Below, piece by piece: positions 9,274-54,872 of a stretch of 64,000 nt of DNA. This DNA comes from Gammaproteobacteria bacterium (lineage in GTDB: Bacteria; Pseudomonadota; Gammaproteobacteria; GRL18), in NCBI GenBank assembly GCA_016744395.1, contig JADGEK010000005.1, forward strand, positions 24,146-88,145. Reading direction: 5' to 3'. Within the stretch, counting starts at the first letter, position 1, and each line of letters begins with the position of its first letter. The translations under genes were made by a program, and so were the position numbers. Below the pieces are notes generated by a model that worked only from the letters and a program-made list of their open reading frames with translations, was not told the origin of the DNA and ran no database searches.

Positions 9274-11148
9274 ATGAGTGTAGATGATCAAATTTCTAAC
9301 AAATCTAACAATCAACCTTTCCATAAAATACTTGAAAAAAACACCTCGCGCCGTACCGTATTAAAAGGCGGTCTTGCTGCTGCAGCCACAACATTCTTTG
9401 CTACTGGAGCAGGTACTGTTCTTGCGCGTAACCATTTTGGTGATAAAGGCGACTCTTTTTTTAAGAGAAAAAAAGGTGGTCTAATCGGTTTTAAGGCTGT
9501 TTCTGTCGCTGATGGTAATGGGGCAATGCCAACGATTTCAGAAGATTATGAATATCAGGTTTTGATCCCATGGGGTGAACCGATTCAACCTTATGGCCCT
9601 TCATTTACTTGGCCGCCTATTTCAAGTCATCAGGAACAGCAAATAGGTATTGGCCATGATGGTATGACTTTTTTTCCAATTAAAAAAGGAAAAAAAGGAT
9701 ATGGGATAGATAAAAAACGTGGTCACCGTGCACAAAACAGTCATGGCTTGTTAGCCATAAATCATGAATTTGGACAAAATAATCATGTGCTTGGTAAGTC
9801 TCAACCTGGTAGCCTGGAAGATGTTCTGGTATCACAACATGCCCATGGTGTTTCTGTCATTGAGATTAAAAACTGTGGCGGCAGTTGGATGCGCGTTCAA
9901 AGTGATATGAATCGACGTATTCATGTGAATACACCCGTTGCATTTAGTGGTCCGGTGGCTGATCATGAATTGTTGCAAACGCCTGATGGCAATATTCCTC
10001 TTGGTACTGTTAACAACTGCTCTAATGGTCAAACGCCATGGGGAACCTATTTGACCTGTGAAGAAAATTTTAATGGCTATTTTGGTGCAACTGGAGCATG
10101 GACTGCGACGGAAGAACAAGAGCGCTATGGTTTTTCTTCATCTGGTTTTGGATATGGCTGGGAAAAATTTGATACTCGTTTTGATCTTTCTAATCCCAAC
10201 TTTAAAAATGAAGAAAATCGCTTTGGTTGGGTCGTTGAAATTGACCCCATGAATCCTGATAGTGTACCGACAAAACGAACAGCATTGGGTCGAGTGAAGC
10301 ATGAAGGTGTCGCAATAACGGTTGGAAAAGGCGGACGGGTTGTGGCCTATATGGGAGATGACCAACGCTTCGATTACATCTATAAATTTGTATCCTCGGG
10401 TAACTGGCGCCGTATGCGTGCTCAAGGCATTAATCCTCTTGATGAAGGCACCCTCTATGTTGCTAAGTTTAACGATGATGGCAGTGGTAACTGGCTTGAG
10501 CTCAGCATAGATAATCCCGTTCTGGCTGCAAGATTTTCTGATCAGGCTGAGTTATTAACTTATACTCGTATTGCAGCGGATCTGCTAGGTGCAACCCCAA
10601 TGGATAGACCGGAATGGACAACTGTTGCACCCAATGGCGATGTTTATTGTACGCTGACCAATAATAGTAAACGTATTGCATCAAATGCGGCTAATCCTTT
10701 AATACCGAATCCTGACGGCCATATTATTAAGTGGCACGATACGCGTAAACATACGGGCACTCAATTCGAGTGGGAGATCTTTTTACTTTCAGAAGATACA
10801 CATGGAACAGAAGATACTTTAAGTTCACCCGATGGCATTTTGGCTGATCCTGATGGACGTCTGTTTATCCAGACAGATGGAGGACAAAAAGACGGCCTGA
10901 ATAATCAGATGTTGGTCGCTGATACTTTAACAGGTGAAATTCGTCGTTTATTTACTGGCGTAACAAAGGATGAAATCACAGGAATTACTATGACTCCTGA
11001 TCGTCGGACAATGTTCATCAATACTCAACATCCTGGCAATGGTGATCCATCCCTGACAAATTTTCCTGCGCCAGTTGATGGAGTAAGCATACCTCGTGAT
11101 GCGACCATTGTGATAACGAAAAAGGATGGCGGTGTGATTGGCTCTTAA
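9274..11148 (+). CDS. phoX: PhoX-family alkaline phosphatase, Tat-exported
   Basis: The 624-residue protein is a member of the PhoX/DUF839 family, periplasmic phosphatases that use Ca2+ and Fe3+ to release phosphate from phosphomonoesters. A twin-arginine signal is clear: SRRTVLKGG at residues 25-33 followed by AAAATTFFATGAGTVLA. Conserved family blocks include GLLAINHEFG, YLTCEENFNGYFG, VGRVKHEGVAI-like sequence and YMGDDQRFDYIYKFVS, and SSPDGILADPDGRLFIQTDGG near the C-terminus. The start ATG has AAGGAAG before it. It stands alone, preceded by a candidate PhoB box and followed by a strong terminator, as expected of a phosphate-starvation gene. Confidence 0.93.
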   Translation: MSVDDQISNKSNNQPFHKILEKNTSRRTVLKGGLAAAATTFFATGAGTVLARNHFGDKGDSFFKRKKGGLIGFKAVSVADGNGAMPTISEDYEYQVLIPWGEPIQPYGPSFTWPPISSHQEQQIGIGHDGMTFFPIKKGKKGYGIDKKRGHRAQNSHGLLAINHEFGQNNHVLGKSQPGSLEDVLVSQHAHGVSVIEIKNCGGSWMRVQSDMNRRIHVNTPVAFSGPVADHELLQTPDGNIPLGTVNNCSNGQTPWGTYLTCEENFNGYFGATGAWTATEEQERYGFSSSGFGYGWEKFDTRFDLSNPNFKNEENRFGWVVEIDPMNPDSVPTKRTALGRVKHEGVAITVGKGGRVVAYMGDDQRFDYIYKFVSSGNWRRMRAQGINPLDEGTLYVAKFNDDGSGNWLELSIDNPVLAARFSDQAELLTYTRIAADLLGATPMDRPEWTTVAPNGDVYCTLTNNSKRIASNAANPLIPNPDGHIIKWHDTRKHTGTQFEWEIFLLSEDTHGTEDTLSSPDGILADPDGRLFIQTDGGQKDGLNNQMLVADTLTGEIRRLFTGVTKDEITGITMTPDRRTMFINTQHPGNGDPSLTNFPAPVDGVSIPRDATIVITKKDGGVIGS

Positions 11149-25587: not shown

Positions 25588-25785
25588 ATGTCGGATTCTG
25601 TGGATACCAAACCTCTGAATATGACTGAGCGTCAAACCACTATTGAGGAATTTACTCATTTTTGTCGTGAAGAAAAAGAGCGCCAAATGAATTCGGGTGA
25701 AAATTTTGATGAGCAAGCCTTTGAAGAAGCGAAAGAGCTGACATTACGTAAGCTACAAGTTCTAGAAGATGAGGGCTGGGTATGA
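25588..25785 (+). CDS. small acidic protein coupled to the membrane Rad50-like ATPase
   Basis: A 65-residue acidic protein (MSDSVDTKPLNMTERQ...) with a predicted helical body rich in Glu and Lys and a C-terminal LEDEGWV. The ATG at 25588 is preceded by AAAGGAGAG; an earlier in-frame ATG at 25534 lacks such a site. Its stop codon overlaps the start of the ATPase gene (ATGA), so the two are almost certainly made together and may form a complex. I do not recognise the family. Confidence 0.7.
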   Translation: MSDSVDTKPLNMTERQTTIEEFTHFCREEKERQMNSGENFDEQAFEEAKELTLRKLQVLEDEGWV

Positions 25786-27593
25786 TTATTCATAGTATTG
25801 AAGCAAAAAACATCCTTAAGTATGAATCCCTTTCTTTACAGGATGTACCACAAGAGGGTGTGATTGCCATCAGTGGTTTTAATGAATCAGGCAAAAGTAC
25901 AATTGGTGAAACTATTTGTTTTGCCTTGTTTGGCCGTACATTTTCCATTAATGAAGATGATTTGGATAAAATCATACGCTGGGGTGAAAGTGACTGCAGC
26001 GTCACGATACGTTTTAGTAATCATAAGTCTGATAGCACAAGTGATGAACTGTTTGCGATTACTCGAATGCTGGATTGTGATGGTAACCATTCAGCGAAGC
26101 TTTATAAAGTTTATAATGAAGAAAACCCTATTGCCCGTGGAATTGAACGAGTAGAAGAAGCACTCTATGAACTCACGTCGGTTGAATTTGATGAATTTAT
26201 TGAGTCTTTCTATCTGGCGCAAAGAGAAATCACTACACCACATCCTCACAGTTATGCTCTCAAAACGATGGCTGGCATTGCCACCATGGAATATTGTGAC
26301 AGCGGCATCCATGAAGACATTCAGCAAGATATTGAAGTTGCCGAGGAACTCAGTGGTCGAATTGAGCAAGTGGCAGAAGAAATTGATGAATTAGAAATGG
26401 AGGCGGGTCATCTGGATTCACTGACGACCCAACATGATAAAGTTCTTGAAGAAAAAGCAAAAACGGATGAGACTCGTGCTGACTACCAAAATTCAATTGA
26501 TGAATATATTGAGACAGCCCCTAAGCTCAGTCGCTATGTGAGTAAAAAAGGTAGAGGTTCATTTTGGCGCTTTATTTATTTTATCATTGCAGGGGCTTCA
26601 TTTGGCTTGTGGTGGATTTTAATGAAAATGCCTGGTGAATCGATTCATAGTCAAGTGACTGAGTTGCTGCAGACCAATCTACCTCAGGTCACGGCTGAGT
26701 ATTATCCCTACTTACTTTATATCGGTGGTGCGGCCACTCTCTTCTTTCTTTTCTTATGGGCAGCCATTATTAGCCATAAAGGTAATATTGCTCGTTTGAG
26801 CATGGCAGGTCAGGACCTTGCAGAAAAAATGGAGGCGCTAAGCGAAGAGTCTCCATCTGCTGAAGGCGTCTTAAACGAAGCCAGAAAACACCAAATTACA
26901 TTAGTCGCAAGCTCTCAAATGAAAGAGAAACAATTATCTGAAGTGACTCAGTTGGACATCGATGGGCTCACTGAACAGCAGGATCAACAAGCTGAGAATA
27001 TCGGTAAATTATCGGCTGAATTAGTGGTTGAACGTGAACGAGTGAAACGTGCGGGTGACTTGCAGGAAAAAATTGATGGTTTGCAATCTCAGATTACAGA
27101 CAAGGAATCCAGAAATCAAACCAGAACTTTGGCAACTGAATTGCTAAGTGGTGCGACTCGACACCTTTCAAAACGCTTTAATCACATCATTCGTGATCAT
27201 GTGGGTAAAACCTTGCCACTTTTTACTGAAAATCGTTATGAACACCTGCAGATTGATGATGACCTCACGGTGAGAGTTTTTTCCAATGAAAAGCATGACT
27301 TTATGGATTTGGATGAAATTTCCAGTGGTACACAGCGTCAAATCATGCTGGCAGTCCGTTTAGCTCTTTCACAGGAAATGGTGAGTCGGAAAGTTCATAG
27401 TAAACAGTTTCTCATACTGGATGAACCCTTTGCATTTTTTGATGAAGAACGTACAGAGCGCTCATTATCTGTTTTGCCTGAACTAAGCGATGACCTGCCG
27501 CAAATTTGGATCATTGCCCAGTCATTCCCTGAAAATATGAATTTTCAGCACACAATTTATTGTGAGCGAGAAATGGTTTCCAAAGCAGAGTGA
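25782..27593 (+). CDS. membrane-anchored Rad50/SMC-like ATPase
   Basis: The 603-residue protein has a Rad50/SbcC-type split ABC ATPase. The N-terminal lobe starts MIIHSIEAKNILKYESLSL with Walker A GFNESGKST (32-40) and a Q-loop-like SFYLAQREIT. The C-terminal lobe has signature DEISSGTQRQIM (about 511-522) and Walker B FLILDEPFAFFDEE (about 543-556). Between them are two coiled-coil arms. At the apex, where Rad50 has a zinc hook, there are two membrane helices (about 261-283 and 310-332) joined by a short loop. No CxxC hook is present. No Mre11/SbcD-like nuclease gene is adjacent. Bacillus YhaN is a comparable membrane-inserted relative. The likely role is DNA handling or stress response at the membrane, but this is inferred. 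Confidence 0.82.
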   Translation: MIIHSIEAKNILKYESLSLQDVPQEGVIAISGFNESGKSTIGETICFALFGRTFSINEDDLDKIIRWGESDCSVTIRFSNHKSDSTSDELFAITRMLDCDGNHSAKLYKVYNEENPIARGIERVEEALYELTSVEFDEFIESFYLAQREITTPHPHSYALKTMAGIATMEYCDSGIHEDIQQDIEVAEELSGRIEQVAEEIDELEMEAGHLDSLTTQHDKVLEEKAKTDETRADYQNSIDEYIETAPKLSRYVSKKGRGSFWRFIYFIIAGASFGLWWILMKMPGESIHSQVTELLQTNLPQVTAEYYPYLLYIGGAATLFFLFLWAAIISHKGNIARLSMAGQDLAEKMEALSEESPSAEGVLNEARKHQITLVASSQMKEKQLSEVTQLDIDGLTEQQDQQAENIGKLSAELVVERERVKRAGDLQEKIDGLQSQITDKESRNQTRTLATELLSGATRHLSKRFNHIIRDHVGKTLPLFTENRYEHLQIDDDLTVRVFSNEKHDFMDLDEISSGTQRQIMLAVRLALSQEMVSRKVHSKQFLILDEPFAFFDEERTERSLSVLPELSDDLPQIWIIAQSFPENMNFQHTIYCEREMVSKAE

Positions 27594-49016: not shown

Positions 49017-50054
49017 TTGAATATTTTTGCAGTTGATCTATTCTGTGGTGTTGGAGGCTTAACTCATGGCCTTGAGCAAAGCGGGATTGATGTTATTGCT
49101 GGTTATGACATTGATGAAAAATGTCGCATTCCGTATGAACGCAATAATAGTGCGAAATTTATAAACCGAAGCATTACGGATTTAACATCAAAAGAATTGG
49201 CATCAAAATACCCAAACAAGAGTTTAAAAATTCTTGCGGGCTGCGCACCTTGCCAACCCTTTTCAAAATACACACAAGCTCAACCAAAAGATAGTCGCTG
49301 GAGCTTATTAGAAGAATTTGGTCGTCTCGCAAAAGAGGTAAACCCCGAACTTATTACAATGGAGAACGTTCCAGATTTATATAGGCATACAGTATTCACA
49401 GATTTTGTGAAAACATTAGAAAAAAATGGATATTATGTATCACACTCTATTGTCTATTGTCCTGATTACGGTATTCCTCAAAGCAGAAAACGACTTGTAC
49501 TGCTGGCGTCAAAATTTGGAAAGCTTGCACTGATAGAGCCAACACACCAACCAAATGAATATGTAACACTAAAACATACCATTGGAAATTTACCTCAATT
49601 AAGAGCAGGAAAATCCCACAAGTCTGACCCGCTACACCGTTCAGCAGGACTATCAGATATAAATATGAGAAGAATAAAAGTATCCAAACAAGGCGGATCA
49701 TGGAAAGACTGGCCAAATGAGCTATTAACTGCCTGTCACAAAAAAGAAAGCGGCAAAAAATATACAGCAATTTATGGAAGAATGCAGTGGGATAAGCCAA
49801 GCCCAACAATTACTACGCAATTTTATAACTATGGTAGTGGAAGACACGGGCACCCGACTCAATCAAGAGCAATTAGCTTAAGGGAGGCTGCGCTACTGCA
49901 ATCATTTCCAGCAGACTATCAGTTTACCGATGAAAGTAGTTTTTCCATTACAGATATATCAAGAATGATTGGAAACGCGGTTCCCGTTCGTTTAGGTGAA
50001 GTAATCGGCCGAAGCTTTTCAAAACATTTAACAGAGTTACAAATCAATTATTGA
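49017..50054 (+). CDS. DNA (cytosine-5) methyltransferase
   Basis: A 345-residue m5C methyltransferase. Motif I is FAVDLFCGVGGLTHGLE; motif IV is GCAPCQPFS with the catalytic Cys79; motif VI is MENVPD (Glu116); motif VIII is QSRKRLVLLA; motif X is RMIGNAVPVRLGEVI. The target-recognition region lies at about residues 185-260 and does not reveal its site. The start is TTG with GAGG 6 bp upstream. It probably marks host DNA for the convergent DUF262-HEPN operon, whose last gene it overlaps by 7 bp at the 3' end. No cognate restriction endonuclease of a known type and no Vsr gene is present. Confidence 0.94.
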   Translation: MNIFAVDLFCGVGGLTHGLEQSGIDVIAGYDIDEKCRIPYERNNSAKFINRSITDLTSKELASKYPNKSLKILAGCAPCQPFSKYTQAQPKDSRWSLLEEFGRLAKEVNPELITMENVPDLYRHTVFTDFVKTLEKNGYYVSHSIVYCPDYGIPQSRKRLVLLASKFGKLALIEPTHQPNEYVTLKHTIGNLPQLRAGKSHKSDPLHRSAGLSDINMRRIKVSKQGGSWKDWPNELLTACHKKESGKKYTAIYGRMQWDKPSPTITTQFYNYGSGRHGHPTQSRAISLREAALLQSFPADYQFTDESSFSITDISRMIGNAVPVRLGEVIGRSFSKHLTELQINY

Positions 50055-50713: not shown

Positions 50714-51865
50714 TTATTCCTCACCTAACAACTTATCTCTCACATATTCAATTCGATTTTTAACTTTAACTCGACTATTAGCTCCATCACCAGTTGTTAA
50801 TATTTTAAATTCTTCCGAAAATAGCCAGTCATCAATACCTTTCACAACTAAGTCAGGATTTTCTCTAAGTGCCAACGCAACACCGACGGAAATGGCTTCA
50901 AACCGAACTCGAGGTGTGGTTTTCGATCCTTTTGACTTTCTAAATCCAAAAGGAAAATTATCTTGAACAAAGCTCATTACCGCTGTGAATTCATCAACCA
51001 TATCTTGATGTGGATTGTTTTGTAGCTCTGAATTTTGTTCAAGATACGAGTCTAGGAAATCCCGAACTGAATGATCAAATGTTTCATAATTTTCTAGATA
51101 TGCAAAGAATCTCAATACGAACTCCATTGCCTCACCACGTTTTGCTTTAGTAAGACCTAAAGGCGCAGCTTCTGTAAAGGCACGAATATCAGCACATACT
51201 TCTAAGACTTGCTTATACAAAGGAGAATTACCATGTTTCGATCCTTTCCTTTTTTCCATATCTTTAAGCTCATCACTCCCTGTATTAATACGCCCCCAAA
51301 GATCTCGTCTAGTAGATTCTGTGCAGTCACTCAATTCAATTATTCTAATTGAAATTCGTTTAAATCTCCGTTGTCGAGAACTAGGAAGATCGCTAAACAT
51401 AAATCCATTTATTTCAGGAACTAATTTTAATCCTTTTAATCTTAGTTCATTTTTTACGAATGCATGTAGTGTTCTTATTCTTTGAGAACCATCGACAATT
51501 TCAATTCTTCCATCATGATCGGGATCGTCAGATTTGACATCAGCGATAAATATATAAGGTATAGGAAGGCCAATCATTAAAGATTCGATTAATCTGCTTT
51601 GATTTTCAATTAGCCAAACAAAGTCACGCTGATAATCTGGAACAAATAATTCATTTTCATCGGTATCCTTTCCCTCATGGTATTTGTCAACGACCATCTC
51701 TACGGTAAATTCCTTTGTATCGTAACTTACCTCTCGTTGATGCTTTCTAATAGCACTTTCAGCCTTTTCCTTAAAAGACTCTATTTGTCCTCTAAGCTCA
51801 ACTCTCCTTGCATCACTATTTGAAGATGCAAGGTCATTTGTCAGCTCTTCTATTGTTTTATCCAT
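50714..51865 (-). CDS. DUF262 (ParB-fold) protein
   Basis: A 383-residue protein with the DUF262 domain found in the GmrSD type IV restriction enzyme and other defence proteins. FVPDYQRDFVWLIENQSRLIESLMIGLPIPYIFI and the motif IEIVDGSQRIRTLHAFV (DGxQR, about 125-129) are visible; this fold hydrolyses nucleotides in GmrS-like proteins. The N-terminal 40 residues form a coiled coil. The C-terminal DUF1524 (HNH) nuclease of GmrSD is absent. It therefore may act as sensor/NTPase and leave cutting to the HEPN partner. The ATG at 51865 has GAGG upstream; four codons of upstream frame are ignored. Confidence 0.85.
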   Translation of the reverse strand: MDKTIEELTNDLASSNSDARRVELRGQIESFKEKAESAIRKHQREVSYDTKEFTVEMVVDKYHEGKDTDENELFVPDYQRDFVWLIENQSRLIESLMIGLPIPYIFIADVKSDDPDHDGRIEIVDGSQRIRTLHAFVKNELRLKGLKLVPEINGFMFSDLPSSRQRRFKRISIRIIELSDCTESTRRDLWGRINTGSDELKDMEKRKGSKHGNSPLYKQVLEVCADIRAFTEAAPLGLTKAKRGEAMEFVLRFFAYLENYETFDHSVRDFLDSYLEQNSELQNNPHQDMVDEFTAVMSFVQDNFPFGFRKSKGSKTTPRVRFEAISVGVALALRENPDLVVKGIDDWLFSEEFKILTTGDGANSRVKVKNRIEYVRDKLLGEE

Positions 51866-51892
51866 TAGTAACCTCACTGTATGTAAATACTA

Positions 51893-52718: not shown

Positions 52719-54872
52719 CTAACTCCTTCTCCATTGATGGAATTTTTTTAACCATTGAAGGATTTTTTCTGGTTTATGGGCTTGTTTCCATTGACCCGCG
52801 ACATATTTATTAGCTTCGGCAAGAGTCGGGTAAATGTGGATGGTGCCCAGAATTTTGTTGAGGCCAATGCCATGGCGCATGGCCATGACGTATTCTGCAA
52901 TTAAATCACCTGCATGCTCGCCAACAATGGTCACGCCCAGGATCTTATCTTTACCTGGTACGGTTAATACTTTAATAAACCCATGTGCTTCTTCGTCAGC
53001 AATGGCTCTGTCCAGATCATCAATATCAAACTGACTGACTTCATAGGCAATATTCTGTTCCTTTGCTTCCAGTTCATTTAAGCCCACACGAGCGACTTCA
53101 GGATCAGTAAACGTCGCCCATGGAATGACAGAATAATCCACTTTGAATGCTTTAAATCCTCTAAAAAGACCATTAACAGAAGCATACCAGGCCTGATGAG
53201 CCGCCGTATGGGTAAACTGATAAGGGCCAGCAACATCGCCACAGGCATAAATATTGGGGTACTTAGTTTGTAAGTATTCATTGACTTCAATGGTTTTTTT
53301 CGCAGTCAATGGAATATCCAGATTTTCTAAGCCAAAGCCGCTGACATTGGCTGAGCGACCTAAAGCAATGAGTACTTCATCAAAAACAATTGAAACTGTT
53401 TCACCATCTTTGTTGGTGCAAATCAGTGTTTTATTACCATCAATGATTTCAAATCGTTGTGCCTGATGATTTAAACAGACGTCAATACCTCCTTGTCTGA
53501 ATTTGTTTTGAACAATTTCTGAAACCTCAGGATCTTCACGCTTCATTAAGCGCCCATTACGTTCAACCTGAGTGACTTGACTGCCCAGACGAGCAAAGCT
53601 TTGAGCCAGTTCACAACCAATGGCACCACCACCGAGAACTAAGAAGCGAGGCGGTAAATAGTCTAAATCCCAAAGAGTATCAGAGCTTAAATAACCGACT
53701 TCTTCCAATCCTTCTAAGGGGGGAATAAATGGTCGGGCACCCGTTGCAATCACAATGTTTTTAGTGGTTAGTGTTTTGCCATTGATGTTAACGGTAAAGG
53801 GAGAAGTAATTCTGGCTTCTCCCTGAAGACACTCAACACCGAGTTTTGTGTAGCGTTCAACAGAGTCATGAGGTTCAACCTGATGAATGACTCGTTGGAT
53901 GCGTTGCATGATTTCTTTAAACTCAAACTGGGTCTCGGTTTCTTGAAACCCAAATTCTTTAGCACGAGCAATGTGAGATTTAAACTTAGCAGAGCGGATC
54001 AAAGCCTTCGATGGGACACAGCCTGTATTGAGACAGTCTCCACCCATTTTATGTTTTTCAATTAAGGTGACTTGAGCCTTAACTGCGGCGGCAATGTAAG
54101 AGGTCACCAGGCCAGCAGCACCTGCTCCAATGACCACCATATTTCGGTCAAATGATTGGGGTTTTTTGTAGCCTTTGTATACCTGATTGGCCTTTAATAG
54201 TGTGAGGATTTTTTTGGCAATCAGAGGAAAAATGCCTAATAAAGTAAAAGAAATGATTAATGGCAGAGATAAAATGCCTGAAACTGATTCTAACTGCCCA
54301 AGTTGAGTACCTGCGTTAACATAAACTGCAGTGCCTGCCAGCATACCTAACTGACTGACCCAATAGAATGTCCGTGTCTTAATTGGCGTGAGTGCCATTA
54401 CCAGGTTGATCATAAAAAATGGGAAGGCAGGTACTAATCGTAAAGTGAATAAATAAAAAGCCCCTTCTTTTTCAACACCAGCATTGATTCGTTCAAGATG
54501 GCTACCAAAGCGGTTTTGCACACTATCCCGCAGTAAAAACCGAGAAGCGAGAAAGGCCAGTGTGGCGCCAATAGTGCTGGCGAAGGAAATCAGAATCAGT
54601 CCCCAAACAAAACCAAAAACGGCACCGCCCATTAAAGTGAGCAAGGTGGCACCAGGTACAGACAAGGCAACTGAAATGACATAAAGAATAAAAAATCCCA
54701 GAGAAGCAGCTACAGGGTTCGCTTGATAGTAATTATTAAGCAAGAGCTGGTTTTCTTTTAAATATGAAAAACTGAGATATTGGGATAAATCAAAAGCAAA
54801 AAAAGTAATGATGGCAGATGCAATCAGAGCAAGGACTACTAATTTTTGAAGAGAAGCTTTCTTTAAGGGCAT
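52719..54872 (-). CDS. TVP38/VTT membrane domain fused to FAD disulfide reductase
   Basis: A 717-residue fusion. Residues 1-230 are a TVP38/TMEM64 (VTT/DedA-like) domain with six or so helices and the PGATLLTLMGGAVFGFVWGL and RFLLRD motifs. Residues 240-717 are a pyridine-nucleotide-disulfide oxidoreductase with FAD motif VIGAGAAGLVTSYIAAAVKA, the redox pair GGDCLNTGCVPSKAL, an NAD motif (VLGGGAIGCELAQSFARLG) and a C-terminal dimerisation domain ending in HIYPTLAEANKYVAG with the His-Glu-like HxYPT. It lacks the extra C-terminal cysteines of mercuric reductase, so the Hg label is not supported. The substrate is unknown. Confidence 0.9.
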   Translation of the reverse strand: MPLKKASLQKLVVLALIASAIITFFAFDLSQYLSFSYLKENQLLLNNYYQANPVAASLGFFILYVISVALSVPGATLLTLMGGAVFGFVWGLILISFASTIGATLAFLASRFLLRDSVQNRFGSHLERINAGVEKEGAFYLFTLRLVPAFPFFMINLVMALTPIKTRTFYWVSQLGMLAGTAVYVNAGTQLGQLESVSGILSLPLIISFTLLGIFPLIAKKILTLLKANQVYKGYKKPQSFDRNMVVIGAGAAGLVTSYIAAAVKAQVTLIEKHKMGGDCLNTGCVPSKALIRSAKFKSHIARAKEFGFQETETQFEFKEIMQRIQRVIHQVEPHDSVERYTKLGVECLQGEARITSPFTVNINGKTLTTKNIVIATGARPFIPPLEGLEEVGYLSSDTLWDLDYLPPRFLVLGGGAIGCELAQSFARLGSQVTQVERNGRLMKREDPEVSEIVQNKFRQGGIDVCLNHQAQRFEIIDGNKTLICTNKDGETVSIVFDEVLIALGRSANVSGFGLENLDIPLTAKKTIEVNEYLQTKYPNIYACGDVAGPYQFTHTAAHQAWYASVNGLFRGFKAFKVDYSVIPWATFTDPEVARVGLNELEAKEQNIAYEVSQFDIDDLDRAIADEEAHGFIKVLTVPGKDKILGVTIVGEHAGDLIAEYVMAMRHGIGLNKILGTIHIYPTLAEANKYVAGQWKQAHKPEKILQWLKKFHQWRRS

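Follow-up and report, generated by a model that had tools for sequence, protein, structure and literature searches.

A Rad50-type ATPase with a predicted membrane hairpin at its coiled-coil apex, encoded together with a small acidic protein

The gene pair and its products

Within the window, which is the whole 64,000-nucleotide stretch of gammaproteobacterial DNA that was analysed, two overlapping genes encode a small acidic protein and a Rad50-type ATPase (Table 1). The end of the small-protein gene and the start of the ATPase gene share the sequence ATGA. Upstream of the pair lies a gap of approximately 490 bases to the next gene, inside which a hairpin terminator is predicted on the minus strand.

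Table 1. Features of the gene pair in the window
Feature	Position	Strand	Basis or remark
Small acidic protein of 65 aa, pI 4.4, predicted to form a helical hairpin	25588..25785	+	ORF, AAAGGAG upstream of ATG
603-aa Rad50-type ABC ATPase with apical predicted membrane hairpin	25782..27593	+	Pfam, PDB and fold search, AlphaFold2
N-terminal head half: Walker A GFNESGKST (32-40), Q-loop YLAQRE (Q147)	25782..26276	+	invariant or nearly invariant columns
Ascending arm of the coiled coil (residues 166-260)	26277..26561	+	model helices H166-203, H210-282
Predicted membrane helix 1, residues 261-283	26562..26630	+	dG -0.5; counterpart in nearly all homologues
Interhelical loop (residues 284-310), free of K/R and predicted to be periplasmic	26631..26711	+	positive-inside pattern
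Predicted membrane helix 2, residues 311-333	26712..26780	+	dG -1.5
Descending coiled-coil arm, residues 334-481, breaks near 357-381	26781..27224	+	model helices H310-356, H363-376, H382-481
C-terminal head half: SSGTQ (514-518), Walker B FLILDEP (543-549), D-loop FAFFD, Q580	27225..27590	+	invariant or nearly invariant columns

Because the dN/dS ratio of the small-protein gene is about 0.1 (0.07-0.13 against six relatives, with changes falling mostly at third codon positions), we count this ORF as a real gene under purifying selection. Of the 104 distinct ATPase loci that have enough upstream sequence, 103 carry a homologue of the small ORF ahead of the ATPase. The small-protein profile matched no more than 120 bases upstream of the ATPase in 96 of these loci, 84 of them with the same 4-base overlap, and five further loci carry a recognisable small ORF with the same end position; in two, the small ORF lies 212 and 290 bases upstream, and in the last one the ORF in this position has no recognisable similarity to the small protein. 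These counts uphold the claim of the first-pass annotation that a 65-residue acidic protein is translationally coupled to the ATPase, and they answer its question of whether the small protein is always present in homologues. Judged by this conservation, the small protein is an obligate neighbour of the ATPase, and the pair a conserved module.

Profile searches with the small protein returned no significant match in Pfam or the PDB. Marginal PDB matches to cullin-3 (best 0.045) and Pfam matches to RbcX and others (above 0.01) were treated as noise. A fused model of a homologue was built from L047, whose two frames are in register, by reading through the TGA to give one chain (P0003); the small protein forms a two-helix hairpin in it, with a pLDDT of about 95. 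The alignment for this model (A7) had six residues per ATPase row misplaced, and the output consisted of confidence values, with no interface data. An exploratory, single-run covariation analysis links the small protein with ATPase residues 140-160 and 460-475 and with the head, which is a weak hint given an effective number of 56 and phylogeny handled by APC only.

The ATPase matched the Pfam families SMC_N (3e-13) and AAA_23 (4e-11) above their cut-offs, Rad50 chains topped the PDB sequence search, and Rad50 entries were also the best in the fold search, in agreement with the first-pass description of a Rad50-like ATPase. Its AlphaFold2 model has a mean pLDDT of 85.5; global TM-scores in the fold search were low owing to differences in the arms. 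Walker A, the Q-loop, the SSGTQ signature, Walker B and the D-loop are invariant or nearly so (over 26 sequences the ABC motifs do not vary), and Q580 is a glutamine close to the H-loop position; the head motifs (signature, Walker B, D-loop, H-loop position) were assigned as in other ABC ATPases. The arms are about 95 residues long (roughly 14 nm) and reach nearly 190 residues in other family members. The heads are unusually acidic for a DNA binder: with crude head boundaries throughout, the net head charge is -25 for the window's ATPase and -14.5 on average for the family, compared with -3 for the SbcC of the same genome and -3 to +2 for three YhaN heads. This net acidity may be compatible with a local DNA-binding patch.

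The predicted membrane hairpin

Known Rad50 and SMC proteins join their arm tips through a zinc hook or a hinge. The window's ATPase has no CxxC motif, and the few found in homologues are never at the hairpin; in the position of the zinc hook, at the apex of the coiled coil, a membrane hairpin is predicted instead. We scored membrane insertion with our own re-implementation of a Hessa-type scale. By this scale no remaining segment of the ATPase falls below a dG of +1.5, and when the coiled-coil region was shuffled 401 times, two segments below 0 arose only once.

The proposal that two membrane helices replace CxxC at the apex held up across the family as well, in that both hairpin segments score below 0.8 in 88 of the 97 distinct members and below 0 in 69 of them, a set that leaves out a 98th row, the soluble viral outlier L088. 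The segments are weaker in some members from a second class of the phylum (see below). Over the 97 homologues, the density of lysine plus arginine is 0.25 before the helices, 0.04 between them and 0.19 after them, and such basic flanks around a K/R-poor loop, a strong positive-inside signal, predict cytoplasmic arms and a periplasmic loop.

Distribution and neighbourhood of the module

Of the 369 gammaproteobacterial genomes sampled, 36 contain the ATPase, and these represent 17 families; among the 314 good-quality genomes the count is 30. Within the window's own family it is present in 22 of 24 genomes, or in 17 of 18 of good quality. Sampling of the phylum outside the Gammaproteobacteria added 33 genomes from nine families; their sequences, all from one second class, form a single clade (100/97) that nests with a few of the long-armed sequences from Gammaproteobacteria. 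Carriers of the module are many bacteria, mostly sulfur-oxidising, and the relatives include Sedimenticola, Candidatus Thiodiazotropha and Thiohalomonas. The gene dsrA occurs in 27 of the 36 module genomes versus 91 of the 333 without the module (p 3e-8, relatedness ignored), an association that may reflect lineage or habitat. Co-occurrence was profiled for two genes in all, dsrA and SbcD (see below).

The ATPase is mostly single copy, and the second matches in two genomes are possible assembly duplicates. One genome has, beside an intact ATPase gene, a further incomplete copy that is interrupted by a TGA (G098:C73:199-645). An apparent 1093-aa ATPase with a C-terminal extension (L047/L048) was rejected, the extension being a read-through of an assembly gap (a run of N). 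The plasmid search returned no ATPase match, and phage or viral matches, of which the phage search gave one, were weak and partial, to a soluble Rad50-like protein or to a head fragment only. At L088, which is the only locus on a viral contig, the encoded protein carries a CxxC motif and lacks a membrane segment.

Gammaproteobacterial flanking genes differ by clade: hslVU and ubiE flank the module in the window, and other clades have RNase II, HrpB or any of many further genes; the position of the module is fixed within clades, and across families only the pair itself is common. The first-pass annotation had regarded a nuclease gene consistently adjacent in homologues as evidence against its reading, and no such gene recurs in the homologue neighbourhoods examined; nor does any DNA-metabolism gene consistently adjoin the module there.

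In the second class, a gene for a PstS-like periplasmic binding protein lies directly downstream of the ATPase in 26 of 28 testable loci (among L090-L118), overlapping the ATPase stop region at some of them. Its product matches PBP_like_2, and TIGR02136 below the cut-off of that model. No PstC/PstA permease was found among the recurrent second-class neighbours, and no PstS-like gene stands beside the ATPase at any gammaproteobacterial locus, the window included. The product of this third gene has the fold of PstS-family substrate-binding proteins, whereas the ATPase coupled to it is of the Rad50 type and not the transporter ATPase PstB. The PstS-like partner points to the cell envelope and is the strongest functional clue, confined to one class.

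Relation to known ATPases and possible function

The module ATPase has in common with Rad50/SbcC an ABC head that a coiled coil divides in two and that carries Walker A, the Q-loop, the signature, Walker B and the D-loop; it differs in that a predicted apical membrane hairpin is present and a zinc hook is not, and in that its neighbour is the obligate 65-aa partner and not Mre11/SbcD. An extremely long branch separates the two in a tree of the heads. An ordinary SbcD gene adjoining that of a 1121-aa SbcC, with CxxC at 547, is encoded on another contig of the window's genome (G000:C20; L177:3873-8581), so the earlier statement that there is no Mre11-like nuclease stands for the surroundings of the ATPase and fails for the genome.

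YhaN (PF13514) is likewise a Rad50-like ATPase with a coiled coil, but the sampled YhaN relatives in the phylum are 1153-1180 aa long, lack membrane segments when scored on the same insertion scale and mostly follow directly after a metallophosphatase (YhaO) gene, which the module ATPase does not have upstream. PF13514 matched the window's ATPase below its cut-off of 22 (E=0.4, 10.7 bits) and found no match in the window's own genome; several second-class genomes have both genes, the YhaN-type one being distinct from that of the module ATPase. SMC, MukB, RecN and RecF share the ABC head fold, and SMC also the long arms, but the SMC hinge is missing, the apex consisting of two helices and a 27-residue loop, and no kleisin partner was recognised in the PDB and Pfam searches with the small protein; RecF, unlike the module ATPase, has no long coiled coil. 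The profiles of the Lamassu LmuB and MADS mad3/mad8 ATPases matched in part, over segments of the head or of the arms; the module differs from these systems in its stable vertical distribution and in having no adjoining effector, nuclease or system genes. No published description of the pair was found in the open-access literature searched; the module is apparently an undescribed variant, within that literature, of the Rad50/SMC-like ATPases.

Our tentative reading, to which we give somewhat less than an even chance, is that the two genes encode one inner-membrane machine, whose likeliest role would be in the cell envelope and not in DNA end processing. The Rad50-type heads would lie in the cytoplasm, with the coiled-coil arms leading to the membrane hairpin and its short loop facing the periplasm, and the membrane itself would stand in for a zinc hook or SMC hinge. 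ATP binding would join two heads and hydrolysis would release them, and the arms would relay head movement to the hairpin, or the periplasmic state to the heads. As a dedicated subunit, the 65-residue helical hairpin would most likely sit at the heads or necks. In a more specific form, which we consider rather unlikely, a periplasmic binding protein or the loop would be coupled through hairpin and arms to the heads of a transenvelope ATPase, and the small protein would regulate the heads.

The motifs, the hairpin with its topology signal, the obligate coupling, the nuclease-free neighbourhood and the PstS-like partner in one class are read from sequence comparison, and prediction together with sequence leaves the architecture and its conservation well supported. 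From these we infer function and mechanism, that is, dimerisation, the coupling of arms to the membrane, the binding site of the small protein and the envelope role. We counted the invariant motifs, the conserved hairpin, the coupled small ORF, the varied neighbourhoods with just the pair in common, the PstS-like partner, the acidic heads and the covariation in favour of an envelope machine. Against it count the gammaproteobacterial loci, where the PstS-like neighbour is absent, and the relatives among SMC and Rad50 proteins, which to our knowledge all act on DNA.

A rival reading is the nuclease-independent DNA tether suggested in the first-pass annotation, in which chromosomal or incoming DNA would be gripped by the heads and kept at the inner membrane by the hairpin. 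DNA-bound Rad50 complexes are the nearest solved relatives and the head architecture is intact, but the acidity of the heads, the periplasmic partner in one class and the lack of a consistently adjoining DNA-metabolism gene make such a tether unlikely in our view. It is improbable that the ATPase is instead a repair enzyme whose nuclease, SbcD or some other metallophosphatase, is encoded at another locus, even though SbcD is commoner with the module (12 of 36 genomes) than without it (32 of 333; p 3e-4, relatedness ignored); an SbcD match is missing from 24 of the 36 module genomes, so SbcD is not required by the module, and in the window's genome SbcD already has a zinc-hook SbcC of its own as partner.

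Still less probable is that the hydrophobic segments form a non-inserted coiled-coil apex or a dimerisation interface. One segment scores above 0.8 in some second-class members and a few others, and the scale is our own version; this reading is opposed by the negative values of both segments in most members, by the charge asymmetry between flanks and loop and by the secreted-type partner in one class. The defence role also put forward in the first-pass annotation, against phages or plasmids, is disfavoured, and we regard it as very improbable. LmuB of Lamassu is among the fold matches, and PADLOC yielded weak, partial matches to mad3, LmuB and other ABC ATPases, yet no PADLOC defence ATPase matched over its full length and no system neighbours occur at the module loci. 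Because the module is chromosomal, mostly single copy, syntenic within clades, near-universal in its own family and off plasmids, its vertical distribution is unlike that of a defence system.

If the envelope machine is real, a membrane-ended, vertically inherited branch with an obligate small partner and, in one class, a periplasmic binding protein would represent a Rad50/SMC architecture turned to envelope work; if the DNA tether is, DNA-handling ATPases can be membrane-anchored.

Other genes of the window include those for a PhoX-type alkaline phosphatase (9274-11148), for a C-5 cytosine methylase (49017-50054) and, close to it, a restriction-type protein of the GmrSD_N kind (50714-51877), some 22 kb from the module, and for a 717-aa protein with a VTT membrane domain and a pyridine nucleotide-disulphide oxidoreductase joined in one chain (52719-54872).
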